Source of the DNA: Leptothrix sp. (in: b-proteobacteria) | GTDB taxonomy: Bacteria; Pseudomonadota; Gammaproteobacteria; Burkholderiales; Burkholderiaceae_C | Assembly (NCBI GenBank): GCA_013822685.1 | Contig: PNKV01000001.1 | Coordinates: 1-64,000 of the forward strand | Length of the DNA: 64,000 bases | Reading direction: 5' to 3' | In this document: positions 17,125-35,371 of the stretch, in pieces | Layout of the letters: each line of letters starts with the position of its first letter | Position numbering within the stretch: position 1 is the stretch's first letter | The notes under the pieces: generated by a model | Seen by the model: the letters and a program-made list of their open reading frames with translations, nothing else | Told to the model about the DNA's origin: nothing | The model's database searches: none | Position numbers and translations under genes: made by a program

Positions 17125-17140
17125 GGGCATGGCCATTGCT
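17125..17140 (+). promoter_or_regulatory. sigma-54 promoter (-24/-12)
   Basis: GGGCATGGCCATTGCT matches TGGCAYG-N4-TTGCW at all but the first base. It lies 50 bp before the Gln-rich small protein gene at 17190. Confidence 0.6.
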
Positions 17141-17189
17141 GGAATGATTTTGTGCAAGCCGCACGTTTGTCAAACGAAGGAGCACTTCC

Positions 17190-17402
17190 ATGACTCAGCA
17201 AAACCAATCCGGTCAAAAGAACTCGCCGAACCAACAGCAAGGCGGCGATCGTCAGCAGCAAGCCAATCGTCAGCAAGAGCAAGACCACAGCCAACGCCAT
17301 CAACAAGGCTCTGGCCAGATGGACTCACCCAGCAAGAATCAGTCGCAGCAAGGTGGCCAACCCAGCCGCAAGTCGTCCGACAACAAGTCTGACCAGCGCT
17401 GA
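17190..17402 (+). CDS. Gln/Ser/Asn-rich disordered small protein
   Basis: The 70-residue product is nearly devoid of hydrophobic residues and rich in Gln, Ser, Asn, Lys and Asp, so it is predicted to be wholly disordered, like hydrophilins. No family is recognised. AAGGAG stands eight bases before the ATG and a good sigma-54 promoter lies upstream, which supports a real gene. Neighbours (DUF883, CsbD) suggest a stress-protection role; that is inference. Confidence 0.65.
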   Translation: MTQQNQSGQKNSPNQQQGGDRQQQANRQQEQDHSQRHQQGSGQMDSPSKNQSQQGGQPSRKSSDNKSDQR

Positions 17403-17464
17403 CAAGGCACCATGAAGGCCGCTGGGCAAGCTGAAAAGGCTGCCCAGCCGGCCGCTTCAAAGCA

Positions 17465-17773
17465 TCAACGTGCCAGTCGGCTCAACAGAACACCCGCCAA
17501 CAAACCAATGGCGAGCGAAGTCAGGGGCTGTTCGCGAATGTGGGTACGCGCGCTGTCCAACCATTCACTCTCCCATTCACCCAAGGCGTCGGCCTTGCCA
17601 TGCAACGCTTCTGCAGCGTGACTGGCTGCAGACTGAACGCCTTCAACCGCAGGCTTCACCTTGGCCGCCACGGTGTCAATGGCTTCATGGGCTCGTTGCG
17701 CCACGCGGTCAACGGCAGCGCCGGAATCAAAAACGTCGCTGTCCTGAAGCAAGGTTTGCGTTCTGTCATTCAT
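17465..17773 (-). CDS. DUF883/ElaB-YqjD-like membrane-anchored protein
   Basis: The 102-residue product has the ElaB/YqjD/DUF883 layout: an amphipathic, alanine-rich helical region (about 20-70), the conserved motif REQPLTSLAIGLLAGVLLSR, and a C-terminal membrane anchor (about 81-99). In enterobacteria such proteins are RpoS-controlled, sit in the inner membrane and bind ribosomes in stationary phase. AGGAG precedes the ATG. Here a sigma-54 promoter at 17811-17826 (minus strand) reads into it. Confidence 0.85.
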   Translation of the reverse strand: MNDRTQTLLQDSDVFDSGAAVDRVAQRAHEAIDTVAAKVKPAVEGVQSAASHAAEALHGKADALGEWESEWLDSARTHIREQPLTSLAIGLLAGVLLSRLAR

Positions 17774-17810
17774 CGAGATTCTCCTGAGTTAGAAAAAGAT
17801 CATTGAGTTT

Positions 17811-17826
17811 GGCAAATGGCATGCCT
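17811..17826 (-). promoter_or_regulatory. sigma-54 promoter for the DUF883 gene
   Basis: On the minus strand AGGCATGCCATTTGCC matches TGGCAYG-N4-TTGC except at the first base. It is about 40 bp before the ATG at 17773, and overlaps an opposite-strand candidate. Confidence 0.65.
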
Positions 17827-17832
17827 TGTGCA
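17817..17832 (+). promoter_or_regulatory. sigma-54 candidate promoter for the 17988 kinase
   Basis: TGGCATGCCTTGTGCA has a perfect -24 half and the GC of the -12 half, with one mismatch (GTGC for TTGC). It shares the palindrome GGCATGCC with the divergent promoter 17811-17826, so the two could not be occupied at once. Confidence 0.45.
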
Positions 17833-17987
17833 TGGTTTTGGTCAGACAAATGAAAAGCCAAGGTTTGAGGCCAGAAATCGGCAAGATTTTCTGAACCGTG
17901 TAAGCGCTGCCGCAGCCGGCGGCCGCTTGATTGCAAGCTCGGTTCCGCACACATCAAAAAAGAGGAGCACTGCTAGCGCGGTTTGCC

Positions 17988-19622
17988 ATGACAACCCAAC
18001 AGGTTTCTTCCGTCACCACGCAAGCCCTTGAGCTTGTCATGGGTGAGATGCCGTTCCAGCGTTTCACCGAAAGCAGCGACGACGTTTTCTGGTTGGCTGA
18101 TTTGAAAACCCGACAATTGCTGTACGTCAACTCCCGCTTCGAACATTTCTGGGGCATTGCCGGCGACGCGCTGCTCAAAGACCCCTCGCTGTGGAACCAG
18201 GCCGTCGTAGAGGCGGATGCCCACCTTCTGCCCAGCCCCTTCTTCGCCGACACGGCGGCCTCTGAGAACTCCCTGCGCGAGTACCAGATCATGGATGCCC
18301 GAGGTCAATGCCACTGGATCCGTGACCGGCGTTTCTACGTGCGTGACGCGCATGACCAGGCGGTTCGGGTCGGCGGCATCGCCGAGGACATCACCGAGCG
18401 CAAGCAGGCCGAGATCCAGCGCGAGCAAATGCTGCAGCGCGAACAATTGGCACGCAAGGAGGCTGAGGCACTGGCCCTGTCCAAGGATGAGTTCTTGTCC
18501 GTGGTCACCCACGAGCTGCGCTCGCCCTTGAACGCATTGCGCGGCTGGGCCCACGTGCTGCGGCGCGCTGGCGAGCTCAGCGCCTTGCAGGAAAAGGCCT
18601 TGGATGCCATCGACCGCAACACGCAGGCCCAAGCCCGCCTGGTGGACGATTTGCTGGACAGCCAGCGCATTTTGCGCGGCACGCTTGAGTTGCAACTCGG
18701 GCTGATCAGCTTGGCCTCGCTGGTCGATGACACGGTGGCCTCCATGCATGAGCAAGCGGCGCGCAAGCACATTACCCTGGAAGTGACCCATGACAACAGC
18801 ATTGACGCCGTGTCGGCCGATCTGAACCGATTGCGCCAAGCCGTGACCAACCTGCTGTCCAACGCCATCAAGTTCTCACCCGAAGAGGGCCTCGTCAGCG
18901 TGCGGACTCTGCGCCTGAAGCAGGCCGTGGCCATTGAAGTGAAGGACCGCGGCATCGGGCTGGCACCGACCCAATTGCCCTTTTTGTTCAACCGCTTTCA
19001 GCAAGCCGACAGCTCCAGCACCCGGCGGCAAAGTGGGCTGGGACTGGGTTTGTCGCTCGCTCAACAGGTCATCGAGTTGCACGGCGGCCGCATCACCGCC
19101 CACAGCGATGGCGTGGGGCTGGGCGCCACCTTCACCATCGAGCTGCCCGACCAAGCCCATGCTGTCACGGCCGCTCTCTCGCTGCCCCACGCATCATTGA
19201 ACGCGCTGGCCGGCAAGCGGGTGGTGGTGGTCGAGGACGACCCCGATGGCCGCGAGATTCTCGAATTGCTGCTGCGAGACGCCAATGTCGAGCCCCGCAG
19301 CTTTGACCGCGCGGCAGGCGCTTACGAGCACCTGGCCCACGCCGCGCCCGAAGAACAGCCCGACGCCTTGATCTCCGACATCGCCATGCCGGACGAAGAT
19401 GGCTACGCCTTCATCCAGCGGGTTCGCGAAATGGAAGCACGCCTGAATCGGCCCCGGATGGTGGCCCTGGCCCTGACGGCCTTCTCCCGCAAAGAAGACC
19501 GCCAACGCGCCTTGGCCGCTGGCTTCGACGAACACGTGGGCAAACCCATCGATTCCCAGGTGGTGCTTCAAACCCTGGAGAGCGCGCTGGACAACAAACG
19601 CGCCGCCGAGCCAACGCCATGA
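17988..19622 (+). CDS. soluble PAS hybrid histidine kinase
   Basis: A cytoplasmic hybrid kinase of 544 residues from the ATG at 17988. A PAS domain (about 25-145, FWLADLKTRQLLYVNSRFE) is followed by HisKA with VVTHELRSPLNAL (near 175), HATPase with SGLGLGLSLAQQV (to about 385) and a receiver (about 405-535) with VVEDD, the acceptor Asp in ISDIAMPDEDGY and the KP lysine. No membrane segment is seen. The start is uncertain: a good AGAGGAG lies near 17961, rather far from this ATG, and the frame is open to 17931. A terminator follows its stop. Confidence 0.88.
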   Translation: MTTQQVSSVTTQALELVMGEMPFQRFTESSDDVFWLADLKTRQLLYVNSRFEHFWGIAGDALLKDPSLWNQAVVEADAHLLPSPFFADTAASENSLREYQIMDARGQCHWIRDRRFYVRDAHDQAVRVGGIAEDITERKQAEIQREQMLQREQLARKEAEALALSKDEFLSVVTHELRSPLNALRGWAHVLRRAGELSALQEKALDAIDRNTQAQARLVDDLLDSQRILRGTLELQLGLISLASLVDDTVASMHEQAARKHITLEVTHDNSIDAVSADLNRLRQAVTNLLSNAIKFSPEEGLVSVRTLRLKQAVAIEVKDRGIGLAPTQLPFLFNRFQQADSSSTRRQSGLGLGLSLAQQVIELHGGRITAHSDGVGLGATFTIELPDQAHAVTAALSLPHASLNALAGKRVVVVEDDPDGREILELLLRDANVEPRSFDRAAGAYEHLAHAAPEEQPDALISDIAMPDEDGYAFIQRVREMEARLNRPRMVALALTAFSRKEDRQRALAAGFDEHVGKPIDSQVVLQTLESALDNKRAAEPTP

Positions 19623-19650
19623 AAAAAGCGCTCCGAGGAGCGCCTTTTTA
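19623..19650. terminator. bidirectional intrinsic terminator
   Basis: GCGCTCC-GA-GGAGCGC (19628-19643) is flanked by AAAAA on the left and CTTTTT on the right, so it can end transcription of the kinase from the left and of the PEP-CTERM gene from the right. Confidence 0.85.
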
Positions 19651-19682
19651 CCGTCAAGCTGGGTGAGTCCCGAATGGGTGAC

Positions 19683-20180
19683 TCAGGACTGCTTGCGACG
19701 GCGGTACATGCTGCCCGCAGCCACCAGGCCAGCCAATGTCATGGCCAGGGTGGTGGGTTCTGGCACCGGCGTGGTGGCCGAGCTCAGCGAGTAGAAACCG
19801 CCAATCGAACCTGTTGCCTGGCCAACCACGTTGTAGTAGTACTCGCCGGGCGAAGTGAGGTCGAAGTAGTGGAAAGTGCTGCCAGTGGTGCCGTCGAACG
19901 TGTAGCTGCCCAGGAAGGTGTCTTCAACACCGGTTTCCTTGTAGAGCTTGACAGCGCCGTTGGAGATGTTCAGCAAACCTGGCGAACCCAGCGACACCGC
20001 CGAGCTCACAACGCTGGAGCTTTCGCCCAGCACAAACTTGAAGATGTCATTGATGTCACCGGCCTCGGACAAGTTGCTGCCCAGTTCGAGCGTGCCGTGG
20101 GTGCCCCAGTCGGTGGTGTTGGCGTGTGCGTTGAATGCCAGAACGCTGGCGAAGGCGACCGTTAAAAGTTTAATGCCCAT
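19683..20180 (-). CDS. PEP-CTERM sorting-domain protein
   Basis: A 165-residue exported protein. Signal peptide at 1-20 (cleavage after AHA), then a beta-rich domain with DIFKFVL-type strands, and a classic C-terminal sorting signal (from about 138): VPEPTTLAMTLAGLVAAGSM, then RRRK. The exosortase (XrtA/EpsH) that would cleave it is not in this window. PEP-CTERM proteins are exported to the surface with exopolysaccharide and support flocs or biofilm. A near-consensus sigma-54 promoter precedes it, in line with the PrsK/PrsR-RpoN control known for XrtA systems. Confidence 0.9.
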   Translation of the reverse strand: MGIKLLTVAFASVLAFNAHANTTDWGTHGTLELGSNLSEAGDINDIFKFVLGESSSVVSSAVSLGSPGLLNISNGAVKLYKETGVEDTFLGSYTFDGTTGSTFHYFDLTSPGEYYYNVVGQATGSIGGFYSLSSATTPVPEPTTLAMTLAGLVAAGSMYRRRKQS

Positions 20181-20230: not shown

Positions 20231-20246
20231 AGCAAACCCTGTGCCA
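20231..20246 (-). promoter_or_regulatory. sigma-54 promoter for the PEP-CTERM gene
   Basis: TGGCACAGGGTTTGCT on the minus strand: TGGCAC and TTGCT are both perfect with the correct spacing. It ends 50 bp before the ATG at 20180. Confidence 0.75.
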
Positions 20247-20265
20247 ACTTTGCAACAGTGCCTTT

Positions 20266-20281
20266 GGGCCTCCCATTTGCC
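20266..20281 (+). promoter_or_regulatory. sigma-54 candidate promoter for the csbD-like gene
   Basis: GGGCCTCCCATTTGCC has GGC at -24 and TTGC at -12 with correct spacing. The upstream half is imperfect. It is divergent from the PEP-CTERM promoter 20 bp away. Confidence 0.5.
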
Positions 20282-20342: not shown

Positions 20343-20528
20343 ATGAACAAAGACCAAGTGTCCGGCCGGGCCGAAGAAGTCAAGGGCAAGATCAAGGAAG
20401 CCGCTGGTTCAGCGACGGACAACGAACGCCTGAAGGCGGAAGGCAAAGCCGACCAGCTCACAGGCAAAGTCAAGGCAGGCTATGGCGATGCCAAGGAAAA
20501 AGTCAAAGACGCCATTGACAAGGCATGA
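20343..20528 (+). CDS. CsbD family stress protein
   Basis: The 61-residue product is a typical CsbD: MNKDQVSGRAEEVKGKIKEA followed by GSATDNERLKAEGKADQLTG and a lysine-rich tail. CsbD proteins are small, very hydrophilic helical proteins of general stress responses (sigma-B-controlled in Bacillus), of unknown mechanism. CAGGAG precedes the ATG at good spacing; the upstream extension of the frame to 20211 overlaps the promoter and is not used. Confidence 0.95.
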   Translation: MNKDQVSGRAEEVKGKIKEAAGSATDNERLKAEGKADQLTGKVKAGYGDAKEKVKDAIDKA

Positions 20529-20603: not shown

Positions 20604-21026
20604 ATGAACAACCTTACTGCCCTGCGGATGTTCCTGGGTCCTGCACCCACGCCATCACCCGTGCCGCCGCACACGCCGGCGCCACCACAAACGCCATCGC
20701 CGCCACCAAGCCCTGATCTGCCGCCGCCCGAAGTGGAGGACCCTCCGCCGGACGAAATCAAGATCCCTGTGCACGAACCCCCGGTGATGCCCACGCCCAT
20801 GGCGCTGCGCGTTGTCATCCGGACCCAACCGACATTGGAAACACGCCATGACTTCATCTTCGACCACACCCGAACAAACGCTCTGGAAGCTGATCCGCGA
20901 CATCCGCTTTGGCATGCTGACCACGCAAGCCGATTCAGGCGATTTGCGTTCGCACCCGCTCACCACGCAAAACCGCAAGGAGGACGAAGGTTCGATCATC
21001 TGGTTCTTCGTGTCGGCGCGCAGTGA
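20604..21026 (+). CDS. proline-rich small ORF (uncertain)
   Basis: From the ATG at 20604 the frame encodes a striking Pro-rich stretch (about residues 14-62, repeated PxP, PPP and DPPP) and then 80 residues of less convincing composition that overlap the next gene in another frame. Small proline-rich proteins of unknown role occur next to stress genes in Burkholderiales. I see no clear ribosome binding site. Only the N-terminal half is plausible; the coding status is open. Confidence 0.3.
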   Translation: MNNLTALRMFLGPAPTPSPVPPHTPAPPQTPSPPPSPDLPPPEVEDPPPDEIKIPVHEPPVMPTPMALRVVIRTQPTLETRHDFIFDHTRTNALEADPRHPLWHADHASRFRRFAFAPAHHAKPQGGRRFDHLVLRVGAQ

Positions 21027-21354
21027 AACCGTGAAGGACGTGTTGGCCCGACACAAGGTGAACCTGGCTTACGCCTCGCCCGACGACGACCGCTATGTGT
21101 CTATCAGTGGCCGCGCGCGCCTGGTCAATGACTTGCAGAAAAAGCAAGAGCTGTGGTCAACCGCATCGCAAGCCTGGTTTCCAGGTGGTGTCACCGACCC
21201 CGATCTGGCCTTGCTGGCCATCGACATCAACCAGGCGGAGTACTGGGACGTCAAGAGCAGCAAGATGGTTCAATTGCTCAAAATGGCCCAGGCGGCCATC
21301 ACCGGCAAACCACCCACGCACATGGCTGAACATGAAAAAGTGCAGCTGGGCTGA
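20848..21354 (+). CDS. pyridoxamine 5'-phosphate oxidase-family general stress protein
   Basis: A 168-residue split-barrel flavin-binding protein of the general stress protein 26 type. Typical features are KLIRDIRFGMLTTQ near the N-terminus, LRSHPLTTQ, IIWFFVSARSETV and VNLAYASPDDDRYVSISGRA, with a late tryptophan in AEYWDVKSSKMVQLLK. Such proteins bind FMN or FAD and are not true PdxH enzymes. The start at 20848 (MTSSSTTPEQ) fits the domain edge. It probably belongs with csbD and is followed by a hairpin. Confidence 0.88.
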   Translation: MTSSSTTPEQTLWKLIRDIRFGMLTTQADSGDLRSHPLTTQNRKEDEGSIIWFFVSARSETVKDVLARHKVNLAYASPDDDRYVSISGRARLVNDLQKKQELWSTASQAWFPGGVTDPDLALLAIDINQAEYWDVKSSKMVQLLKMAQAAITGKPPTHMAEHEKVQLG

Positions 21355-21547: not shown

Positions 21548-22954
21548 ATGCCTCACGCATTGGTGGTGGATGACGAAGCCGACTCGGCGGAGATGATGGC
21601 CACATTGATCGCGATGGAAGGTTTCACCGTCGCGACCGCGGGCTCGCTTCGTGATGCACGCAAGCAACTCGCGCTGCAGGAACCCGACATCGTTCTGCTC
21701 GACCTGATGCTCCCCGATGGCAGCGGCATGCAGCTGTTCGACGACGGCAAGAACCTGACCAACACTGAAGTGGTTTTGATCACCGGGCATGCCAGCCTGG
21801 AGACCTCCATCCAGGCGCTGCGCCTGGGCGCGGTGGACTACCTGGTCAAACCCGTCAACATGAAGCAGTTGCACGGCATCTTGTCCCGTGTGACCAAGCC
21901 TTCTGCCTTGAAGGCCGAGGCCGCCGATCTGCAGACGGGCCTGGAAGAAGAAGGCCACTTTGGCTTGCTGTGGGGGCGTTCGGCCGTCATGCGCCACGTG
22001 TACGAGCAGATCCTGCGCGTCTCGGGCACGGCGGTGACGGTTTTCATCACTGGCGAAAGCGGCAGCGGCAAGGAAGTCGTGGCCAGCACGGTCCACGACC
22101 TGAGCCGCCGGCGCGGCCGCCCCTTCCTGGGTGTCAACTGCGGCGCCATCTCGCCCCACCTGATCGAAAGCGAAATCTTCGGCCACGAAAAGGGCAGCTT
22201 CACCGGCGCGGATCGGCAGCACCAGGGCTTCTTTGAGCGCGCCAGCGGCGGCACCCTGTTCCTGGACGAAGTAACCGAGATGCCACTGGATCTTCAGGTC
22301 AAGCTGTTGCGGGTGCTGGAAACCGGCACCTTCATGCGGGTGGGTTCCACCCAGGTCCAGGAAACCGACGTCCGCATCATCGCCGCCACCAACCGCTCGC
22401 CCATGCAGGCGGTGAAGGAAGGCAAGCTGCGCGAAGACTTGCTGTACCGCTTGAATGTGTTCCCGATCCACCTGCCCGCCTTGCGCGAGCGCGCCGAAGA
22501 CGTGCCCTTGATCGCCGAGCATTTCCTGGAGGAAATCTCACGCCGCGAAGGCCAGGTCAAAACCTTCGACCCGGAAGCCCTCAAGCGGCTGTCGGAATAC
22601 AACTGGCCGGGCAATGTGCGTGAGCTGCGAAACATCGTCCACCGCGCCTATGTGATGGCGCGAGGCAGCGTGATCGTTGACGAGTGCCTGCCCACCACCG
22701 ATGCGCCATTGCCCGTGTTGACCGGCGCGCCCATCTTGTCGATCCGCGTGGGCACCACGCTGGCAGAGATCGAGCGTCAGGTCACGCTGGCCACGCTGGA
22801 ATACCTGGGCAGGCACAAGGAGAAGACGGCTGCCACGCTCGGCGTCAGCCTGAAGACCTTGTACAACCGCCTGAAGGAATACTCCACCGTGCCGGTCAGC
22901 CTGGATGGTGACCTGCCTTCAGACTCGTCGTCCTGGGGTGACCTGGGGCACTGA
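21548..22954 (+). CDS. sigma-54-dependent response regulator (NtrC type)
   Basis: A 468-residue activator of sigma-54 RNA polymerase. Receiver domain 1-120 (acceptor in VLLDLMLPDGSG), AAA+ domain about 140-375 with Walker A GESGSGKE (near 168), the loop motif as GSFTGA (near 216; Ser replaces the usual Ala, a known tolerated variant), Walker B GGTLFLDEV and arginine finger region LREDLLYRLNVFPIHLP. A Fis-type helix-turn-helix ends the protein (ATLEYLGRHKEKTAATLGVS, then LKTLYNRL). It is the only enhancer-binding protein here and so the natural candidate to fire the many -24/-12 promoters around it. No kinase is adjacent; the hybrid kinases nearby may phosphorylate it. Confidence 0.95.
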   Translation: MPHALVVDDEADSAEMMATLIAMEGFTVATAGSLRDARKQLALQEPDIVLLDLMLPDGSGMQLFDDGKNLTNTEVVLITGHASLETSIQALRLGAVDYLVKPVNMKQLHGILSRVTKPSALKAEAADLQTGLEEEGHFGLLWGRSAVMRHVYEQILRVSGTAVTVFITGESGSGKEVVASTVHDLSRRRGRPFLGVNCGAISPHLIESEIFGHEKGSFTGADRQHQGFFERASGGTLFLDEVTEMPLDLQVKLLRVLETGTFMRVGSTQVQETDVRIIAATNRSPMQAVKEGKLREDLLYRLNVFPIHLPALRERAEDVPLIAEHFLEEISRREGQVKTFDPEALKRLSEYNWPGNVRELRNIVHRAYVMARGSVIVDECLPTTDAPLPVLTGAPILSIRVGTTLAEIERQVTLATLEYLGRHKEKTAATLGVSLKTLYNRLKEYSTVPVSLDGDLPSDSSSWGDLGH

Positions 22955-22999: not shown

Positions 23000-23218
23000 T
23001 TACCGCTGGCTCGGCATGTGGCGTTCTAGCGCCGGCATCCTTCTGCGGTAAGTCTGGCCGCCGAGTTCATCTTCTATTTCAGCAAAGTCGGCCTCGGCCT
23101 GGAGTTGGGCCTTGCGGGTCGCATACCAGCCTTTGCGCGATTTCGAAGCATCACGCGTGGCTTTGGTGGACTCGAATTCATCGCGCAATGCATGCCGTTG
23201 GTCAGAAGATGACTTCAT
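23000..23218 (-). CDS. small hypothetical charged protein
   Basis: The 72-residue product (MKSSSDQRHALRDEFES start) is highly charged and helical, with many Lys, Arg, Glu and Gln and no membrane segment. I recognise no family. GGAG precedes the ATG at 23218. It starts 20 bp after the stop of the single-domain response regulator and is very likely in the same operon, transcribed from the sigma-54 promoter at 23731-23746. A coiled, protein-binding helper is possible; that is speculation. Confidence 0.55.
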   Translation of the reverse strand: MKSSSDQRHALRDEFESTKATRDASKSRKGWYATRKAQLQAEADFAEIEDELGGQTYRRRMPALERHMPSQR

Positions 23219-23238: not shown

Positions 23239-23694
23239 TCAGCGGGCAAAGGCTGACATGCCCGCCATGGACCTGGCTTTCATGCCCCAAGGGGCTTCGG
23301 CGAAAAAGGTCGACGATCGCCCTAGCAGCAACTGGTCAAGCCTTTTGAGGATGGACGGGATGTCCAAAGGCTTTTGCCAAACTTCGAGGAACGTCGTCTC
23401 GTTCAAATGTTGAACATCGGCGGCCGTTACCGCGATGGCAGGCACGGAAGACAGAACCGGTTGCGCACGAAGGCGTTCCAGCAACTCGCTGCCATGGCAA
23501 TCGGGCAGGTTCAGATCCAGCAGCAAAAGGGCCGGAGGCCGCTTGATTGCGGCCTGGTAGCCATCCTCACCATTGGTCGCAATGGTTAGCTCCAGCGACG
23601 GCAGTTGCGCAAACAAAGCCTGCATCAACTGCACATTGACCGGGTGGTCTTCCACGTACAGGACCTGGGGGCGGGACTGGTGAGCTGAATGCAC
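23239..23694 (-). CDS. single-domain response regulator
   Basis: A 151-residue receiver-only protein: acidic pocket in VLYVEDHPVNVQLM, acceptor Asp in ALLLLDLNLPDCHG, conserved threonine in AIAVTAAD and lysine in VWQKPLDI, followed by about 25 extra residues with no domain. It has no output, so it acts by phosphotransfer or protein contact, perhaps with the hybrid kinases nearby. A fully matching sigma-54 promoter lies 37 bp upstream of the ATG. Confidence 0.9.
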   Translation of the reverse strand: MHSAHQSRPQVLYVEDHPVNVQLMQALFAQLPSLELTIATNGEDGYQAAIKRPPALLLLDLNLPDCHGSELLERLRAQPVLSSVPAIAVTAADVQHLNETTFLEVWQKPLDIPSILKRLDQLLLGRSSTFFAEAPWGMKARSMAGMSAFAR

Positions 23695-23730: not shown

Positions 23731-23746
23731 AGCAAGCGATATGCCA
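23731..23746 (-). promoter_or_regulatory. sigma-54 promoter for the response-regulator operon
   Basis: On the minus strand TGGCATATCGCTTGCT has perfect TGGCA and TTGCT halves at the correct spacing, ending 37 bp before the ATG at 23694. Confidence 0.75.
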
Positions 23747-23877
23747 CCCTTTGTCGCCCTCTGTTTTTGCCTGTGCAGGCCACGCGCCAACCGGGGCATC
23801 GGGAAAATTTACAGAAAAGCATGCAACACGATGGCGAATGCACGCGCATTGATTCTGAATGTAACGAATGTAGCTGC

Positions 23878-23893
23878 AGGCCCCTCAATTGCC
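23878..23893 (+). promoter_or_regulatory. sigma-54 candidate promoter for the fumarase-like gene
   Basis: AGGCCCCTCAATTGCC has GGC and TTGC at correct spacing. Placed about 75 bp before the ATG at 23969 and inside the upstream extension of that frame, it favours the later start. Confidence 0.45.
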
Positions 23894-23968
23894 CTGATGA
23901 ACGCGCACGGGCATCGGGCCCTGGCGCTGGAGATTTTCCCCATGCCCTCAAGGACTGAACAACACGCC

Positions 23969-24787
23969 ATGCAAACGAAGCCCATGCCTTCGGAGTTGAT
24001 CGCGGCCATGGCCATGGTGAAGCGCGCGTGTGCCAAAGCTGGCCACGATCTGGCGCTGGCCTACCCGGGCACCGCCCAGGCCATCGACTTGGCGACCTTG
24101 CAGATCACCTCAGACCCTTGTGCAGGCTTGCATGTCGCTGCCAGCATGGGTGTGGTCCAAAATCTCTTGCCGGCCCTGGTCGGGTTGAGTGCGGAATTAG
24201 AGAAGAGCGCCCTGTTGCAAAGCGCCGCCAAATCGCGAGAGCTTTCGCGGCATGCTGAGCAGCTGAGGTCTTCGCACGAAGCCATCACAGCCGCCCTGCC
24301 CTGCGCTCACCAACTGGTCATGCACCGAAGCACATCACCCCAAGTGCGTGAGCAATTGGCCAAAGCGCTGACCCGCAGCTTGAGTCTGCCTTTCCTGGAC
24401 GCTGATGACGCCGCCCTGACACCTGAAGACGCCTTGGGCAAGCTGGCCAGCCTGCATGGCGCTCTGGCCTCGGCCGCCATGGCCTTGAGCCACATTGGCG
24501 AAACCATGCGCGAGCTGGCCCCATCCCGGCAAGACACCATGCAATGCGACGCCTTGGCCATGGTGTGTCGCCAGGTGATGGACAACGACCAGGCGCTGGG
24601 CGAAAGGGCGGATGCGAGGCAACTGGCGCACAAGCTTTTGCAAAGCATCCGCCTTTTGACCGACGCGACGACGGTGTTCACGGACTATGTGGTTCAAGGG
24701 CTCACCGCGAATCGTGGTGACCGCCACGCGCTTGGCCTGGCCAGCTCCTTGATGCTGGCCACCTCGAACTCACTTCAAACGGTTTGA
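23969..24787 (+). CDS. degenerate fumarase-C-like protein without catalytic loops
   Basis: The 272-residue product aligns by eye with class II fumarase in blocks: MPSELIAAMAMVKRACAKAG near the start, LHVAASMGVVQNLLPALVGL, a later block around LGKLASLHGALASAAMALSH, and QCDALAMVCRQVMDND with LLQSIRLLTDATTVF and GLTAN at the end. FumC is about 460 residues. The segments between blocks, holding the GSGTQSNMN, SSNDVFPT, GRTHLQDATP and SSIMPGKVNP active-site elements, are deleted or replaced, so it cannot be a fumarase. The frame is intact, which argues against simple decay. The helical-bundle core may persist as a regulator or scaffold. The start could also be 23831. Confidence 0.75.
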   Translation: MQTKPMPSELIAAMAMVKRACAKAGHDLALAYPGTAQAIDLATLQITSDPCAGLHVAASMGVVQNLLPALVGLSAELEKSALLQSAAKSRELSRHAEQLRSSHEAITAALPCAHQLVMHRSTSPQVREQLAKALTRSLSLPFLDADDAALTPEDALGKLASLHGALASAAMALSHIGETMRELAPSRQDTMQCDALAMVCRQVMDNDQALGERADARQLAHKLLQSIRLLTDATTVFTDYVVQGLTANRGDRHALGLASSLMLATSNSLQTV

Positions 24788-24824: not shown

Positions 24825-25025
24825 ATGACACGCAACCTTTATCACCTGGCCTTGGCGGCCTTGTTCACCGGCACGGTCTGGTCACTGCGGCAACAGGCCC
24901 GCCAAAAGCGCCAAACGGCGCTGCGCTCCAAGACCAGGCCGGACGCCGAGCAAACCTGGGAACATGAAGGTGGTGCGCTGCCCCAAACCGGCAGTCACAT
25001 GGGCCCAAATCCAACGCTGCCCTGA
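24825..25025 (+). CDS. small protein with N-terminal membrane segment
   Basis: The 66-residue product begins with a short hydrophobic stretch (about 5-21), then a basic region and a C-terminal EGGALPQTGSHMGPNP-type tail that I have the impression recurs in Burkholderiales small proteins. Function unknown. CAGGAG lies six bases before the ATG. Its end overlaps the convergent DJ-1-like gene by 31 bp. Expression probably comes from the upstream gene or the weak -24/-12 site. Confidence 0.6.
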   Translation: MTRNLYHLALAALFTGTVWSLRQQARQKRQTALRSKTRPDAEQTWEHEGGALPQTGSHMGPNPTLP

Positions 25026-25645
25026 TTGAACGGCAGCGCCGTGGACGTGGTGGCCACGTCCATGTCTTCAATGCGCCGCCAATGCCTGTCCTTCACGATG
25101 GCATCGATGAACTGATCAGCCACCTCCTCCAGAGCCTCTTCGTGCAGGTCGGTCACGATGCCGTGAGCCTTGGGGTCATCAGCATGGAATGGCAACGGCA
25201 CCCCCACCTCTCTCAGCAACTCGACACCCTCGCCGGTTGCCGCCACCGACTTGCCATGCTCGTAGGCCTCGCGCATGAAATGGAGGGCGTCGGGGTCTTC
25301 TTGCAAGAGGGCCACGCTGCCTGTGCCACCTGGCACATAGACGGCATCGAACATCACCGAAGGCATGTCCAGCCAATGGTGGTCCACCGGCACTTGCCCA
25401 CCCGACTCACCCCACAAGGGGCCGGCGCAGTTGGAGACCACATCAACTTGGGCACCGCCCAATTCCAACGCACGCCGCACAGCCTCAAGCTGCACCTCGT
25501 TCAAGCCATCACGCGCCAGCACCGCCACACGGCGTGATGCCAATGCGGGCGGTGCTGGCTCGGCCGCCAGGGAGTCAGCCTGGAGCATGCCCAAGGCCGT
25601 GATGGACGAATCCACCAAGAGGTCGATGAGTGGTGGCTTGCTCAT
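24995..25645 (-). CDS. stand-alone catalase C-terminal-type DJ-1/PfpI domain protein
   Basis: The 216-residue product matches the C-terminal GATase1-like domain of large-subunit (KatE-type) catalases rather than a protease: RRVAVLARDGLNEVQLEAV, VDHHWLDMPSVMFDAVYVPG with GGTGSVALL and HFMREAYEHGKSVAATGEGV. The nucleophile-elbow Cys of true PfpI proteins is replaced. No catalase core is fused to it; a catalase-like gene lies 5 kb away. It starts 18 bp after a 25-codon membrane peptide and shares its sigma-54 promoter, so it is probably part of the same stress operon. Confidence 0.85.
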   Translation of the reverse strand: MSKPPLIDLLVDSSITALGMLQADSLAAEPAPPALASRRVAVLARDGLNEVQLEAVRRALELGGAQVDVVSNCAGPLWGESGGQVPVDHHWLDMPSVMFDAVYVPGGTGSVALLQEDPDALHFMREAYEHGKSVAATGEGVELLREVGVPLPFHADDPKAHGIVTDLHEEALEEVADQFIDAIVKDRHWRRIEDMDVATTSTALPFNQGSVGFGPM

Positions 25646-25663: not shown

Positions 25664-25741
25664 TCAATTGAATAGCAGATAGAGGATGACCAACACAAAC
25701 GCGGGGACGCCTAACAGCCAGCCCAGGATGTACTTGCCCAT
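25664..25741 (-). CDS. 25-residue single-pass membrane peptide
   Basis: A minus-strand ORF of 25 codons: MGKYILGWLLGVPAFVLVIL then YLLFN and TGA. A strong AAGGAG lies seven bases before the ATG. Nearly the whole peptide is one membrane helix with a helix-breaking GVP in the middle. I have the impression that similar MGKYxLGWLLGVP peptides recur in proteobacteria, but this needs a search. A very good sigma-54 promoter lies 36 bp upstream, and the DJ-1-like gene follows 18 bp downstream. Confidence 0.75.
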   Translation of the reverse strand: MGKYILGWLLGVPAFVLVILYLLFN

Positions 25742-25776: not shown

Positions 25777-25792
25777 AGCAAAGGGCGTGCCC
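25777..25792 (-). promoter_or_regulatory. sigma-54 promoter for the membrane peptide/DJ-1 operon
   Basis: On the minus strand GGGCACGCCCTTTGCT matches TGGCACG-N4-TTGCT except at the first base. It ends 36 bp before the peptide ATG. Confidence 0.7.
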
Positions 25793-25798
25793 CTCGAC

Positions 25799-25814
25799 AG
25801 GCATACCGATTGCC
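25799..25814 (+). promoter_or_regulatory. sigma-54 candidate divergent, toward asmA-like gene
   Basis: AGGCATACCGATTGCC has good GGCA and TTGC halves. The start point would fall at about 25825, directly at the ATG at 25826, implying a leaderless message; no ribosome binding site is seen there, which fits, but chance is possible. Confidence 0.4.
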
Positions 25815-25825: not shown

Positions 25826-27841
25826 ATGACGACCAAACGAGGAAAGACAGGGAAGCTGCTGGCATTGGGGATCGTGACCGTGACCATTGCAGCGATCGCC
25901 GTGTGCGAGTACCAAGGTTGGCCCTTCTTGAGGGGCCCACTGGAGCGCACCCTTGCTGAAAAACTGCAGCGGCGCGTCGCCGTGGGCGATCAGTTCACCC
26001 TGCACCTGCTGGGCTCCATCCGCCTCAGCACCAACCGTTTGACGATCGGCTCACCTGGCGCTGATCCTGATCTGTTGAACGCGGTCAACACACGCCTCGA
26101 TCTGCCTTACTCCACTGTTTTTGACTTGATGGGCTCGGGCCCCAAAGAGCCCATCCACATCACCTCGCTGACTTTGGATCAGATGGACGCCAATCTGCGC
26201 CGTGACGCGCAAGGCCAGGCGAACTGGCAATTTGCACCGGCATCGGCAAAGAAGACCGATTCACCGGGCATGGACCTGCCACGGTTTGACAAGCTCATCG
26301 TCAAAGCAGGCCGCCTGCAAATGCAGGACGATCTGATGAAACTGAACCTGGATGCGCAAGTCAGCACCGCCGAGGGTGATGCCACCAAAGGCGCTGGCGG
26401 CCTGTCGATCAATGGCAAAGGCCAGTACCTCAAGCGCCCTTTTGACCTGAACATCAAGTCCAGTGGCTTGCTGCCTTTGGCGGCTTCGCCTGAATCGGCC
26501 GTGGCGGTTCCCATCACGGTGGAAGCCAACGCCGGCCAGTCCAAGTTGCGTTTCAATGGCCAAGGTGTGGATGTGCTGACCTTGTCCAGCCTTGACGGCA
26601 AGCTCACCTTGTCGGGCCCTTCGCTGGCGGCGGTGGGCGATGCAGTCGGCGTGACACTGCCCACCACCACGCTGTTCACTTTGAAAGGGCAACTCAGCAA
26701 GAAAGGCGATGTGTGGTCGCTCAAGCAAACCAGTCTTGACGTGGGCACCAGCCAGTTGGGCGGCTCATTCACCTTTGACCGCCGGCCCAAGGTGCCACTG
26801 CTCACTGGCGAGCTGACAGGCTCCCGCTTTGTGTTGAGTGACCTGGCCCCGGCATTTGGCGCCCAGGCCCCGGGCGCCAACAACCCGGCACCGCCCGATG
26901 GCCGTGTGGTGCCCCAACGCACCTTCGACATCCCTTCCTTGCACGCGATGAATGCGGATCTGAAGGTGGGCTTGAAGCGCGTGGAGCTGGGCTCATTGTT
27001 CGCACGGCCACTGGAACCTTTGAACGGGCAACTGAAGCTGCAGTCGGGCGTGCTGACAATCTCGGATCTGTTGGCCAGCACCGCGGATGGCCAAGTGAGC
27101 GGACGCGTCGGCCTGGACGGCAATCCCAAGCCGCCCACCTGGGAGGCGGACGTGCAATGGAAGGGCATCCGGCTTGAGCAATGGCTGAGCCCCCGCAACC
27201 AGTTTGCCAATCAGGAAGAAGCCGACAAGGCCAAGCGCGACAGCTATGTGACCGGCCAGTTGGGTGGACACGCCAAGCTGCATGGCCGTGGCAACTCGGC
27301 CGCTCAGATGCTGGGGACCATGGATGGCGACGCCCAAGCCTGGGTGCAGGACGGCGCTGTATCACACCTGGTGGTCGAGGCCATTGGCCTGGACGTGGCC
27401 CAGGCCCTGGGCGTGGTGGTGGCGGGTGACGACCTCATGCCCATGCAATGCGCTGCCGTGCGCCTGAAGGCACAGCAAGGCGCCTTGAAGCCGGAGGTCG
27501 GTGTGATCGACACCGACGACTCCACCATCCTGGTGTCCGGCTCGCTGTCATTGGTGGACGAAAGCCTCGACCTGATCATGACCGCCAAGCCCAAGGACAT
27601 CAGCCCCCTGACCCTGAGATCGCCCTTGAAGGTTCAGGGCACGTTCGCCGATCCCAAGTTCAGGCTCGAGGCCAAGCCTCTGGGCTTGAAGGTTCTTTCC
27701 GCGGTAGCCTTGGGCTTCGTCAACCCGCTGGCCAGCATCATTCCCCTGATCGATCTGGGCGACAAGACCGATGGTGGTTGCCAGCAGGCTTTGGCGAAGC
27801 TCAAAGGTGATCGGCCCAAGGCCAAAGCGGCCCGCCCATGA
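25826..27841 (+). CDS. AsmA family protein
   Basis: A 671-residue AsmA-like protein: a short N-terminal membrane anchor (about 10-27, LLALGIVTVTIAAIAV), then a long periplasmic beta-strand-rich region typical of the AsmA/TamB/YhdP repeating-groove proteins, and the AsmA C-terminal domain (about 470-640) with LDLIMTAKPKDISPLTLRSP and VQGTFADPKFRLEAK. Family members are thought to move phospholipids between membranes. No ribosome binding site is evident at 25826. The next two genes follow closely, so it heads an operon with a lipoprotein and a DUF2177 protein. Confidence 0.88.
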   Translation: MTTKRGKTGKLLALGIVTVTIAAIAVCEYQGWPFLRGPLERTLAEKLQRRVAVGDQFTLHLLGSIRLSTNRLTIGSPGADPDLLNAVNTRLDLPYSTVFDLMGSGPKEPIHITSLTLDQMDANLRRDAQGQANWQFAPASAKKTDSPGMDLPRFDKLIVKAGRLQMQDDLMKLNLDAQVSTAEGDATKGAGGLSINGKGQYLKRPFDLNIKSSGLLPLAASPESAVAVPITVEANAGQSKLRFNGQGVDVLTLSSLDGKLTLSGPSLAAVGDAVGVTLPTTTLFTLKGQLSKKGDVWSLKQTSLDVGTSQLGGSFTFDRRPKVPLLTGELTGSRFVLSDLAPAFGAQAPGANNPAPPDGRVVPQRTFDIPSLHAMNADLKVGLKRVELGSLFARPLEPLNGQLKLQSGVLTISDLLASTADGQVSGRVGLDGNPKPPTWEADVQWKGIRLEQWLSPRNQFANQEEADKAKRDSYVTGQLGGHAKLHGRGNSAAQMLGTMDGDAQAWVQDGAVSHLVVEAIGLDVAQALGVVVAGDDLMPMQCAAVRLKAQQGALKPEVGVIDTDDSTILVSGSLSLVDESLDLIMTAKPKDISPLTLRSPLKVQGTFADPKFRLEAKPLGLKVLSAVALGFVNPLASIIPLIDLGDKTDGGCQQALAKLKGDRPKAKAARP

Positions 27842-33193: not shown

Positions 33194-33231
33194 GGGGCGT
33201 CTCTCTGAGGTGTCATGGGAGTGACTCTCTT

Positions 33232-33247
33232 TGCAACACCCGTGCCG
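33232..33247 (-). promoter_or_regulatory. sigma-54 promoter for rpoN itself
   Basis: On the minus strand CGGCACGGGTGTTGCA matches TGGCACG-N4-TTGCA at all but the first base; it ends 39 bp before the rpoN ATG. Confidence 0.75.
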
Positions 33248-33355
33248 GACCGGTTTCCCCTGGGGCCCAGGGGCAAAGCCCGTTTCAAGGCGTGCAAATT
33301 TCAAAAAGCCATGTTCGATTTACCGCAACAACTGCCGATGGGCAAGATTTTTGCT

Positions 33356-33619
33356 CTAGCGGCGCGGCTTGGCTTGTCCGCCTGTCGGTTTTCCCGACTT
33401 GAGGGTGCGGTTATAGACCTCGTCCGTCACTGGGGAACGGTCGGTGTCCACCAAACCGCGTTGCACATCGGCGTGCGCCTGCTTCATCTCTGGCCGGGGT
33501 TCGCTGACCTGGCTGTCTGAAGACTCGTCGTGCTCATGCGGCAAACGGGGCGAGGGCTTGCCTTTGACGCGGGGCAAAGTGTCGCCTTGGGGAGGGGAGT
33601 TTTTGTCAATGGGATTCAT
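33356..33619 (-). CDS. small hypothetical hydrophilic protein
   Basis: An 87-residue, Pro/Lys/Ser-rich and probably disordered product (MNPIDKNSPPQGD start; KSGKPTGGQAKPRR end). No known domain. AAGGG lies five bases before the ATG at 33619, and the gene overlaps the end of the YihY gene by 14 bp, so it is the last gene of that operon. Confidence 0.6.
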   Translation of the reverse strand: MNPIDKNSPPQGDTLPRVKGKPSPRLPHEHDESSDSQVSEPRPEMKQAHADVQRGLVDTDRSPVTDEVYNRTLKSGKPTGGQAKPRR

Positions 33620-34529
33620 GCCCTTGAGCGGGCAATCCACGTGCCGGCCGCTCCAAGGGGTAGTGCTCGTCCACCACCGCGCCCAAGGCGCCGCCCAGCA
33701 GCAGGATCTGTGCGGAGTAATAAACCCACAGCATCACCACCACGAAGGAACCCGCAGCGCCATAGCTGGATGCCACGCTGGCATGCACCAGGTACAGCCC
33801 GATCAGGTGCTTGCCCACCGAAAACATCACCGCGCTGCTGATCGCGCCCACCCACACCGCCAGGCGGCTGGGCTTTCTTTCAGGCAACCACCGCAACAAG
33901 GCGGCGAAGGCCATCACCAGCACGCCTGTGGACACCGCCACATCCAGCAAGCCCATCAGCTCGGCCAGGGTGGGAAAGCGGGTGGACATGTAGGCACTGA
34001 GGGCCGCCAGCACAGCACTGAGCAAAAGCGAAACGATGGCCAGGAAGCCAAACCCCAGCACCAGCGCAAAACCAATCAAGCGCGCACGCACAAAGGCCGA
34101 GATGGCCGAAGATTGGTCGGGCACCACGCGCGCGATGGCATTGAGCGCACGCCGCAATTCGGCAAACACGCCGGTGGCACCCACCAGCAAGGTGACCACG
34201 CCCAGCAAACTGGCCCACAGGCCATTAGGATGGCGCCAGGCCGACTCGATCATGGCTTCGATGCCTTTGGCAGCGGCCTGGCCTACCAGGCCCTCGATCT
34301 CGCCAACGATCTGCCCACGGGCCGCGTCTTCACCAAACACCGCGCCCGCGATGGCGATGGCCACCACCAGCAAAGGCGCCACCGCGAACATCGTGTAGAA
34401 GGCGATGGCTGCGCCCAACTGAGGGCCTCGGTCGTCCAGCCAACGGTTCACTGCCTTGAAAAGGATTTGCACAGGCCGCCGCAACACCGTCGGCACCAGG
34501 CTCCACAATCGATCAGGCCAGGAAGCCAT
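33606..34529 (-). CDS. YihY/BrkB family membrane protein
   Basis: The 307-residue product has six membrane helices and the YihY/BrkB signatures DRGPQLGAAIAFYTMFAVAP near residue 35 and SYGAAGSFVVVMLWVYYSAQ near 265. The old label ribonuclease BN is wrong; the family is of unknown or transport-related function. It follows the outer-membrane-barrel gene by six bases. Confidence 0.92.
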   Translation of the reverse strand: MASWPDRLWSLVPTVLRRPVQILFKAVNRWLDDRGPQLGAAIAFYTMFAVAPLLVVAIAIAGAVFGEDAARGQIVGEIEGLVGQAAAKGIEAMIESAWRHPNGLWASLLGVVTLLVGATGVFAELRRALNAIARVVPDQSSAISAFVRARLIGFALVLGFGFLAIVSLLLSAVLAALSAYMSTRFPTLAELMGLLDVAVSTGVLVMAFAALLRWLPERKPSRLAVWVGAISSAVMFSVGKHLIGLYLVHASVASSYGAAGSFVVVMLWVYYSAQILLLGGALGAVVDEHYPLERPARGLPAQGHESH

Positions 34530-34535
34530 CGGCGT

Positions 34536-35198
34536 TCAATAGCGGTAACGCAAACTCAGCGCCGCCGTGTCCACGTTGTCGCGGCCGGTCACGAACTTGA
34601 AGTCATGCCGGTTCAAGTCCGCCGATGCCGACCAGTTCTGCGAAACATGCCAGTTCACGCCCACGCCATACGACAGGCCAAGACCATGCGCTGAGCCGGT
34701 GGGAACGGAGGCATTGGTGGCCAGGTCCATGCGCGTGCGGGCATAGTTGGCGCCCAGCCGGCCAATGAGGCTCACACGCGAGCCCAGGGGCATTTCGCCC
34801 AGCAGGTTCACGTTCAGGCCACGGACACGAACGGCGTTGCCCACATGCTCGAGGTTGCTCATGCGCATGTAGGCCAGCTCAAACCCCCAACGCTGACTGA
34901 ACTCACCGCCAGCGTACAAAGTAATGGCGCGGCCATTGCGGCGGCAGACCATGCCTTCGGGGCAAGGCATCCGCGCTGAACCGATGCTCAAACCCACATG
35001 GTGCTTGGCTTGGCGAGGCCGCCAACCAGGGGCGGATGGATCGGTGGCTTCGGGGCTGTACGCCAGATTGCTGGCGAACGGACCATCCTTGCCAGGCAGG
35101 TCGTCTGGCGCATCGGCGGCTTGGCTGAACTGTGAACAAACACACAACAAGACCAAGCACCACTTTCGCAGCCTGAGTTGTTGTTGCGGGAAATTCAT
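34536..35198 (-). CDS. outer-membrane beta-barrel protein
   Basis: The 220-residue product has a signal peptide (cleavage after QAA near residue 28) and an eight-strand-type barrel of alternating strands, such as GLNVNLLGEMPLGSRVSLIG, ending in LSLRYRY with a terminal aromatic residue. It resembles OmpA-like/OmpW-like small porin barrels but no family is certain. Two Cys near 78-84 (MPCPEGMVCR) may form a disulphide. It heads the operon with yihY, read from the sigma-54 promoter at 35251-35266. Confidence 0.75.
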   Translation of the reverse strand: MNFPQQQLRLRKWCLVLLCVCSQFSQAADAPDDLPGKDGPFASNLAYSPEATDPSAPGWRPRQAKHHVGLSIGSARMPCPEGMVCRRNGRAITLYAGGEFSQRWGFELAYMRMSNLEHVGNAVRVRGLNVNLLGEMPLGSRVSLIGRLGANYARTRMDLATNASVPTGSAHGLGLSYGVGVNWHVSQNWSASADLNRHDFKFVTGRDNVDTAALSLRYRY

Positions 35199-35250
35199 CG
35201 CGGCTCCTTGGGGGAAAAAGCACGGTGCGCCGTGTGATCAACCATTGATC

Positions 35251-35266
35251 AGCAACTGGCGTGCCG
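35251..35266 (-). promoter_or_regulatory. sigma-54 promoter for the barrel/yihY operon
   Basis: On the minus strand CGGCACGCCAGTTGCT matches TGGCACG-N4-TTGCT at all but the first base; about 50 bp before the ATG at 35198. Confidence 0.7.
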
Positions 35267-35296
35267 TGCCCGCGAGCCCTCGTTGCAAATGGCATG

Positions 35297-35312
35297 CGGC
35301 ACGCTGCTTGCC
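35297..35312 (+). promoter_or_regulatory. sigma-54 promoter, distal, for the PA2169-type gene
   Basis: CGGCACGCTGCTTGCC has GGCACG and TTGC at correct spacing; 100 bp upstream of the ATG at 35413, divergent from the barrel-operon promoter. Confidence 0.6.
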
Positions 35313-35355
35313 TGTCATGGTAGGCATCAACCCCAACGGGCAATCGCTCGAAATG

Positions 35356-35371
35356 TGGCTGATTCATTGCT
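35356..35371 (+). promoter_or_regulatory. sigma-54 promoter, proximal, for the PA2169-type gene
   Basis: TGGCTGATTCATTGCT has TGGC and TTGCT at correct spacing; it ends 41 bp before the ATG at 35413. One of the two tandem sites may be the active promoter. Confidence 0.55.

Follow-up and report, generated by a model that had tools for sequence, protein, structure and literature searches.

In the 64,000-nucleotide stretch analysed here (the window; contig PNKV01000001.1 of the Leptothrix sp. assembly GCA_013822685.1, positions 1 to 64,000), a sigma-54 regulon that is real and conserved, and that has a sigma paralogue of its own, was found between 17 and 36 kb. The region contained exact -24/-12 promoter sequences, a divergent second rpoN gene (rpoN2) and one enhancer-binding regulator (EBR), which was most likely the regulon's own activator. 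We considered it probable that this two-component EBR and its own sigma-54 form a dedicated system that runs genes of the general-stress type. A stress function of the regulon, read from the gene families alone, was likely. An earlier note on this DNA had proposed a clustered sigma-54 regulon of stress and envelope genes. This proposal was supported by controls within the same genome, by conservation of the sites, by loci of other betaproteobacteria and by the co-occurrence of regulator, sigma factor and one target.

At least a dozen promoter-like sites had been claimed for the region, at 13 coordinates. Nine of these were perfect GGCA-N6-TTGC sites (17126+, 17812-, 20232-, 23732-, 25778-, 25800+, 33233-, 35252- and 35298+), with the GG and GC of sigma-54 promoters ten bases apart within GGCA and TTGC halves, upstream of genes. 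The coordinate 17811 corresponded to the perfect minus-strand site 17812-. The description of the halves as mostly full held for these nine, and it failed for 17817, 20266, 23878 and 35356, which were GG-N10-GC sequences with one imperfect half. The sequence at 17817 overlapped the minus-strand site 17812 and was probably no separate promoter. Three further perfect sites were found at 33341+, adjoining the putative rpoN2 enhancer, at 33632- and at 27195-. The last of these lay within the AsmA gene and was probably a chance match, and single sites such as 27195- or 17817+ may be due to chance.

The density of the exact sites was compared with several controls. Between 17.1 and 35.4 kb there were 12 exact matches, and 1.43 were expected from the genome rate of 330 per 4.21 Mb (Poisson 4e-8). 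The intergenic DNA of 17.12-36 kb held 10 exact sites in 2,135 bp (4.7/kb), compared with 10 in 31,906 bp (0.31/kb) for the intergenic DNA of twenty 20-kb stretches from the same genome. A first-order Markov model of the region's intergenic DNA gave 0.32 expected sites, with a maximum of 3 in 500. Permutation of the half-sites over 17-36 kb gave a mean of 1.0 and a maximum of 6 matches, against the 12 real ones. When the spacer was 3, 4, 5, 7, 8 or 9 instead of 6, at most three matches were found in the region, at most one of them intergenic. In the whole, mostly coding window, spacers of 5 and 8 gave 11 and 10 matches against 16 for a spacer of 6, so that whole-window totals alone would be misleading. 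The bare GG-N10-GC count was dropped as too weak (45 observed and 32.4 expected, maximum 49). Equal motif density in random intergenic DNA, which the earlier note had named as a reason to abandon the regulon, was not seen for the full sites, and it nearly disposed of the bare GG-N10-GC rule.

The intergenic regions of the window were aligned with two close Aquabacterium loci (L033 and L034), and the rpoN2 region with three genomes of the genus. The sites at 17126, 17811/17812 and 33233 were identical in all aligned rows, with diverged DNA next to them. The sites 20267 (+) and 25800 were nearly identical in the aligned relatives, and those at 20232, 23732, 23879 and 25778 kept both halves while the flanks diverged. 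No alignment was obtained in this comparison for the DNA preceding DUF2383, which was examined in 17 genomes, as described below.

One enhancer-binding regulator had been claimed for the window, and its translation indeed showed REC, Sigma54_activat and HTH_8 domains with a GSFTGA motif. It thus has the features of a bacterial enhancer-binding protein, namely an AAA+ domain with a GAFTGA-type loop, a DNA-binding helix-turn-helix (HTH) and a regulatory domain. It scored below the NCBIfam cut-offs for NtrC (378 vs 558.6), AtoC (403 vs 714), ZraR (340.5 vs 760) and PrsR (338 vs 502.6). The recognition helix was LG[IV]SLKTLYN in the near loci compared. Homologues of both hybrid kinases of the region were found near the EBR in many loci.

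The rpoN gene reported for the window was confirmed as encoding a sigma-54, with PF00309, PF04963 and PF04552, a TIGR02395 score of 424 bits over the cut-off of 277, and the RpoN box ARRTVTKYR. In addition it was a second, divergent paralogue, which had gone unnoticed. This made the case for a dedicated regulon stronger. The genome carried two rpoN genes in an assembly that is 93.6% complete. The copy on contig C26, which adjoins an lptB-like ATPase gene, was taken to be the canonical one (RpoN1). RpoN2 of the window was 43% identical to it, fell in another clan and was not the canonical RpoN. In an unrooted tree of 71 rows, 66 of them different, a 39-row RpoN2 group (100/100) together with three EBR-linked RpoN of other families was split from the other 29 rows by a branch of 100/98. 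A 26-row RpoN1 clan was held by a branch of 100/99, and three further RpoN sequences fell between the clans, two of them EBR-linked (genomes G041 and G138). The RpoN box could not be located in two partial rows; where located, it read ARRTVTKYR in the RpoN2 group and in two of the three EBR-linked RpoN that join this group, the third having TVAKYR. The RpoN1 clan had ARRT[VI]AKYR. A plasmid origin of RpoN2 was considered and rejected, since none of 153 plasmid records with RpoN reached 60% identity; the 15 matches listed lay at 37-45%, and no close plasmid relative was seen among them. An exact site stood upstream of rpoN in 19 loci, the window counted, and in 15 of 22 loci in which rpoN was found.

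The genus is called Aquabacterium here after the records whose genes are identical or 96-98% identical to those of the window. Joint occurrence was followed in its 37 genomes, the present one included, with thresholds of at least 53% identity for RpoN2 and at least 68% for the EBR, the best 26 of about 100 EBR candidates being scored per genome. RpoN2 was found in 17 of the 37, and the EBR in the same 17 (Fisher 6e-11, uncorrected for descent). In G012 the two genes were about 240 kb apart. Several of the 20 genomes counted as lacking them were incomplete, and G009 and G031 showed no RpoN whatever. DUF2383 (E at most 1e-15) was found in 16 of the 17 RpoN2-positive genomes (not in G003) and in none of the 20 others (Fisher 1e-9). 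The p-values exaggerate how many separate events there were, since members of a single genus share descent. For six of the 16 genomes, DUF2383 was either on a different contig from the EBR or over 75 kb away from it. Of the 17 genomes with DUF2383 (G058, outside the genus, included), 8 had a same-strand exact site no more than 320 bp from the domain, and three more had CTGC at -12. At the level of the order, with seven candidates scored per genome, the EBR was found in 21 of 220 genomes. In 14 of these 21 an RpoN lay within about 20 kb of it, and 10 of the 14 had at least two RpoN. Occurrence in the same genus genomes and linkage across the order thus both pointed to a dedicated RpoN-activator pair.

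The same kind of site was looked for around the EBR in related bacteria, using 80 loci kept from a longer list from named genomes. RpoN2 was also present in the EBR loci of Aquabacterium humicola and Hydrogenophaga palleronii. These were 66 betaproteobacterial loci (EBR at least 53% identical) and 14 distant ones (below 50%, mostly Acidobacteria). A site was called placed when a called gene on the same strand started 5-250 bp downstream of it; the distances are approximate because the starts in the relatives come from a simple gene caller. The betaproteobacterial loci gave 329 GGCA-N6-TTGC sites, 198 of them placed; among 143 permuted patterns the mean number of placed sites was 5.2 and the highest 19. 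By contrast, the distant loci gave 11 sites and 3 placed, near the permuted means of 11.6 and 0.9. The control from the own genome gave 25 sites and 10 placed (permuted means 17.9 and 1.7, maximum placed 8). A hand-picked set of 28 less redundant loci had 114 placed sites against a permuted mean of 2.7 and a maximum of 10. At least one placed site was present in 45 of 51 loci of at least 20 kb (median 4), compared with 8 of 20 control stretches. Among the spacers N3-N9 only N6 was enriched in these 51 long loci, with 290 sites, of which 176 were placed; no other spacer exceeded 85 sites or 14 placed ones.

The window and the relatives together had 208 placed sites in 55 of 67 loci, with about five placed sites expected by chance in the loci. 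The window itself had ten placed sites, of which the three outside the region (10477-, 14097- and 51720+) may be chance. The genes behind the placed sites formed 67 clusters, and many of these had only one member or no Pfam family. The largest cluster consisted of receiver-domain proteins (25 sites in 20 loci, 14 matching the window's REC protein). It was followed by rpoN (19 loci), DUF883-like (15), glycosyltransferase 4 (10), PRC-barrel, hemerythrin and KGG proteins (8 each), YmgE/Transgly_assoc (7), AsmA (5), DUF2383, DJ-1 and PEP-CTERM (4 each), SDR (3), and topoisomerase IB and DUF4142 (2 each). The family of an 87-aa open reading frame (ORF) of the window occurred in 4 loci besides the window; the window's own copy was not among the placed sites, its site being inside BrkB. 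Ku, Hsp20, CBS, DUF421, Nramp and others were single targets. CsbD, KGG and similar proteins are stress proteins of RpoS, sigma-B or EcfG regulons. Behind the sites, several families of the kind typical of such regulons were mixed with envelope and unassigned families. Elsewhere in the genome, 400 kb of DNA away from the cluster held 10 placed sites. One of them preceded a second DUF883-like ORF, recognised by eye, with the same site GGCATGCCATTTGCC. Other genes behind these sites (nine of the ten scanned), some of which may belong to the regulon, included DUF3606, thioredoxin, patatin, MdoG, sulfate transporter and NUDIX genes. The exact match at the MdoG gene (L126) lay 7 bp before the called start.

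Over the 208 sites the preferred bases were GGCA[C/T]G..G.TTGCC; the base preceding GG was T in 10%, and TTGC was followed by C in 71%. The pattern GGCAYRN4TTGCC was denser in RpoN2-positive than in RpoN2-negative genomes of the genus (medians 7.3 vs 4.8 per Mb, p 6e-5), and the canonical TGGCAYRN4TTGCW was not denser in the RpoN2-positive ones (1.3 vs 1.9 per Mb, p 0.12).

In the search for an enhancer, a first candidate, GGCA-N7-TGCC, was rejected as oppositely oriented sigma-54 sites, and a motif search after crude masking gave nothing outstanding. Motifs emerged only when 82 kb of site-bearing intergenic DNA was compared with 139 kb of site-free intergenic DNA, matched for composition. GTAA-N3-TTAC was found in 24 exact copies against 3 in the control. 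Among 12 permutations it alone was enriched, and none of the nine spacers gave a stronger signal. It occurred mostly in Noviherbaspirillum/Herminiimonas loci, where some copies were exactly 20 bp apart. In the other loci the repeat CGGYAA-N3-TTRCCG, with at most two mismatches, gave 57 matches against 30 (ratio 4.2), the best of 60 permutations. The near-identical permutation YGGCAA scored 3.6, and other spacers of the CGGYAA repeat at most 1.8. This repeat lay 40-200 bp upstream of the GG in 44 of 208 promoters, compared with 37 of 983 control genes, with a peak at 60-80 bp. In the window it lay 61, 62 and 84 bp upstream of the DUF883-like, REC and rpoN2 promoters, and a weaker second copy at the first of these, with three mismatches, was found at 17898. 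A one-mismatch match to the consensus was also observed at 23046-23060, in or beside a small ORF (23003-23219-) and far from any known site. The sigma-54 sites often occurred in divergent pairs (17811-17825, 20232-20280, 25778-25813 and 35252-35311), and for 37 of the 208 placed sites an exact site in the opposite orientation stood no more than 150 bp upstream. A single enhancer could act on both promoters of such a pair.

RpoS was searched with TIGR02394. None of the 37 genus genomes had a match over the cut-off, the present assembly being 93.6% complete. A match below the cut-off (362.7 bits, 319-aa frame) was seen in G010. RpoS over the cut-off was found in 11 of 24 genomes outside the genus and in 94 of 220 in the wider draw from the order. 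It was present in 4 of 21 EBR-positive and 90 of 199 EBR-negative order genomes (p 0.02, uncorrected for descent). A replacement of RpoS by RpoN2 became less plausible because the 20 genus genomes in which RpoN2 and EBR were not found had no RpoS over the cut-off either.

Table 1. Regulators, promoter sites, putative enhancers and selected genes of the sigma-54 cluster (positions in the window)
Feature	Positions	Strand	Remarks
rpoN2, 486 aa	31733..33193	-	AID, core-binding and DNA-binding domains; RpoN box ARRTVTKYRQ
EBR, response regulator, proposed activator	21548..22954	+	REC - AAA+ (GSFTGA) - Fis-type HTH
Hybrid histidine kinase, candidate input	14061..17120	+	PAS/HisKA/HATPase/REC; dCache match just below cut-off
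Hybrid histidine kinase, candidate input	17988..19622	+	PAS/HisKA/HATPase/REC
Exact -24/-12 site	17126..17139	+	before small Q-rich ORF 17190-17402
Exact -24/-12 site	17812..17825	-	before DUF883-like ORF 17465-17773
Imperfect site, ATGC at -12	17811..17824	+	overlaps 17812-; faces kinase 17988-19622; uncertain
Exact -24/-12 site	20232..20245	-	before PEP-CTERM gene 19683-20180
Imperfect site GGCC-N6-TTGC	20267..20280	+	before CsbD 20343-20528
Exact -24/-12 site	23732..23745	-	before REC gene 23239-23694
Imperfect site GGCC-N6-TTGC	23879..23892	+	before ORF 23942-24787
Exact -24/-12 site	25778..25791	-	before 25-codon ORF 25664-25741 and DJ-1/HPII-C-like gene 24995-25645
Exact -24/-12 site	25800..25813	+	before AsmA 25826-27841; genes on to 31725 if one operon
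Exact -24/-12 site	33233..33246	-	40 bp before rpoN2; predicted autoregulation
Exact -24/-12 site	33632..33645	-	before 87-aa ORF 33356-33619; within end of BrkB
Exact -24/-12 site	35252..35265	-	before outer-membrane beta-barrel gene 34536-35198; also BrkB 33606-34529 if one operon
Exact -24/-12 site	35298..35311	+	before DUF2383 35413-35868, DUF4142 35904-36644, topoisomerase IB 36649-37707
Second, imperfect site GGCT-N6-TTGC	35357..35370	+	about 43 bp before DUF2383
Putative EBR enhancer	17879..17893	.	2 mismatches to CGGYAANNNTTRCCG; 61 bp upstream of 17812- (DUF883-like promoter)
Putative EBR enhancer	23800..23814	.	2 mismatches; 62 bp upstream of 23732- (REC promoter), between divergent sites
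Putative EBR enhancer	33323..33337	.	2 mismatches; 84 bp upstream of rpoN2 site 33233-
DUF883-like small protein	17465..17773	-	no Pfam match at 0.001; one relative matches DUF883_C below cut-off
CsbD-like stress protein	20343..20528	+	Pfam
Pyrid_ox_like family protein	20848..21354	+	Pfam; no site of its own noted
Single-domain receiver (REC)	23239..23694	-	Pfam
DUF2383/PA2169-family four-helix protein	35413..35868	+	co-occurs with RpoN2 and EBR

The genes behind the sites had been named as CsbD, DUF883, PA2169, AsmA, DJ-1-type and PEP-CTERM. All of these were preceded by exact sites except CsbD, which had only the imperfect GGCC-N6-TTGC. The Pfam matches in the window were CsbD, Pyrid_ox_like, DJ-1/Catalase_C, AsmA, DUF6279, DUF2177, GSDH, BrkB, OMP, DUF2383, DUF4142 and topoisomerase IB, together with a catalase match below the cut-off. 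The Pyrid_ox_like protein (20848..21354) is presumably of the general stress protein 26 type. The DJ-1-type protein (24995-25645, -) matched the C-terminal domain of large catalases (HPII) and had no catalase domain. The hydrophobic 25-codon ORF (25664-25741, -) between it and its exact site lay in a stretch that was largely kept in L033 and L034. The 87-aa ORF (33356-33619, -) matched no Pfam family, and relatives of it stood behind exact sites in four loci (BLAST E 3e-22 to 2e-8). The protein at 23942-24787 (+) showed weak similarity, below the cut-off, to fumarase C-type lyases, and an FumC-type lyase was among the site-linked genes in relatives. Just past the cluster lay a very large ORF (40847-49573, -; 2,834-2,908 aa) with GH94 and glucoamylase-like domains, which we take to be of the cyclic beta-glucan synthase kind.

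The following mechanism would account for these observations. On a stress signal, the hybrid kinases, with those at 14061-17120 and 17988-19622 as candidates, would signal to the EBR at 21548-22954. Phosphorylated EBR would bind inverted repeats CGGYAA-N3-TTRCCG about 60-85 bp upstream of the -24/-12 promoters, and its AAA+ GSFTGA domain would open complexes formed by RpoN2. Since rpoN2 lies behind the same kind of promoter, a positive loop would result. The predicted output in the window would comprise the DUF883-like protein, DUF2383/PA2169 with DUF4142 and topoisomerase IB, the DJ-1-type protein, AsmA, OMP, PEP-CTERM and the conserved 87-aa protein, and probably CsbD through its imperfect site. 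In relatives it would also include KGG, YmgE-type, PRC and hemerythrin proteins, with Ku and Hsp20 in single loci. Such an output would consist of protective and envelope proteins of the type run elsewhere by RpoS, sigma-B or EcfG. A more far-reaching version, which we put forward only tentatively, is that in Aquabacterium and its kin, where no RpoS was recognised, the duplicated sigma-54, its own two-component activator and the rpoN2 loop act as the master of the general stress response.

It is unlikely, in our judgement, that the promoters are real and driven by the EBR while being read by RpoN1, with RpoN2 serving a few other promoters or only the dose of sigma-54. The window sites do fit the ordinary GGCA/TTGC consensus, some with T before GG and T or A after TTGC, and the Noviherbaspirillum/Herminiimonas EBR loci had sites and enhancers with no RpoN2 found in the flanks examined. 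However, among the 37 genus genomes RpoN2 and the EBR were found in exactly the same 17, rpoN2 itself was preceded by a site of this kind, and the RpoN box and, in most other loci, the flanking bases were altered. An envelope or exopolysaccharide regulon for surface remodelling, floc or biofilm, similar to the way in which PrsK/PrsR and RpoN control PEP-CTERM genes, is likewise an improbable description of the whole. It would suit the PEP-CTERM, AsmA and OMP genes behind exact sites in the window and the glycosyltransferase, GLF, epimerase and PLD families behind the sites of relatives. Sigma-54 has also been proposed as a controller of the cell exterior (PMC3162934), and a PEP-CTERM gene of Aquincola depends on RpoN1 (PMC9850573). 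However, the genome had no PrsR over the cut-off, and the EBR itself was below it. Furthermore, DUF883-like, KGG, Ku, Hsp20, hemerythrin, DJ-1, DUF2383 and topoisomerase IB genes are not known as surface genes, and we counted them against an envelope regulon. An artefact of chance or base composition has next to no probability left, since the barely raised count of bare GG-N10-GC and the whole-window spacers 5 and 8 are outweighed by the permutation, in-region spacer, Markov and same-genome controls and by conservation. Taken together, the region's exact sites already refute it.

Several observations weighed against a dedicated system of the general-stress type, which remained our preferred explanation. 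No same-strand site lay within 320 bp of the domain in 6 of 17 DUF2383 loci, and 7 of the 21 EBR-positive order genomes had no RpoN over the threshold near the EBR. The EBR-linked RpoN of G041 and G138 were outside the RpoN2 clan. A recognisable enhancer 40-200 bp upstream was present for only 44 of 208 placed promoters and for three in the window, and the statistics of the enhancer motifs were computed on the discovery set itself. In the window and the two closest loci TTGC was followed by T and by C with about equal frequency, and the RpoN2-type variant therefore does not hold strictly in them. The CsbD gene of the window had no exact site, and none of the 208 genes behind placed sites matched CsbD. 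Many targets were envelope or sugar genes. The negative link between EBR and RpoS in the order was weak and suggestive only, and the genus genomes that lacked RpoN2, EBR and RpoS alike meant that the system is not a simple RpoS replacement.

In textbooks, general stress responses serve as examples of what sigma-70-family sigma factors do. RpoS, sigma-B and EcfG belong to that family, need no ATP-driven activator and use different promoters, and their regulons probably overlap in targets with the families found here (CsbD, KGG, YmgE-type, DJ-1/HPII, Ku and similar ones). Paralogous RpoN with a cognate EBR is known, and the gene content is what is unusual. Cereibacter (Rhodobacter) sphaeroides has the pairs RpoN1/NifA, RpoN2/FleQ and RpoN3/AprX, with the base at -11 helping promoter choice (PMC11999139). 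The present system resembles it in having several sigma-54 copies, each with its own enhancer-binding protein. Its pairs serve nitrogen fixation, flagella and a repressor gene, whereas here stress-type genes are clustered around sigma factor and activator in betaproteobacteria. PrsK/PrsR was recognised via matching phylogenetic profiles and has an NtrC-like response regulator, -24/-12 sites and an upstream activator motif (PMC1569441). The present system shares these features, but the EBR scored 338 against the PrsR cut-off of 502.6, and most target families here are not PEP-CTERM. In Bradyrhizobium sp. DOA9 a second RpoN (RpoNp) on a megaplasmid was stated by its authors to influence stress adaptation (PMC13207237). 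In contrast to RpoN2 it is alphaproteobacterial and plasmid-borne, and the available portion of that paper describes no dedicated activator or clustered stress regulon. Two RpoN variants occur in some Burkholderiales (PMC3162934), and of the four rpoN paralogues in Aquincola RN12, one drives a PEP-CTERM gene (PMC9850573). The main text of PMC12316311 contained neither 'general stress' nor 'Burkholderiales'. Among the top-ranked titles and abstract openings of the open-licence literature, none described a general-stress-type regulon under a sigma-54 paralogue in Burkholderiales.

The arrangement was kept in many related bacteria, which suggests a general-stress-type programme run by a route not known for that job. 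If true, this would add to RpoS, sigma-B and EcfG a further general stress route, which would stay silent until it is activated at the expense of ATP. Finding the same kinds of genes under a sigma-54 paralogue would mean that a sigma factor dependent on an activator can take over the programme. The system is also a natural case for promoter separation by sigma-54 paralogues, with the RpoN boxes TVTKYR and TVAKYR and the bases flanking GG and GC. It would help to explain the extra rpoN genes kept by many betaproteobacteria, and it would offer a testable regulator for many orphan stress genes in bacteria without RpoS.

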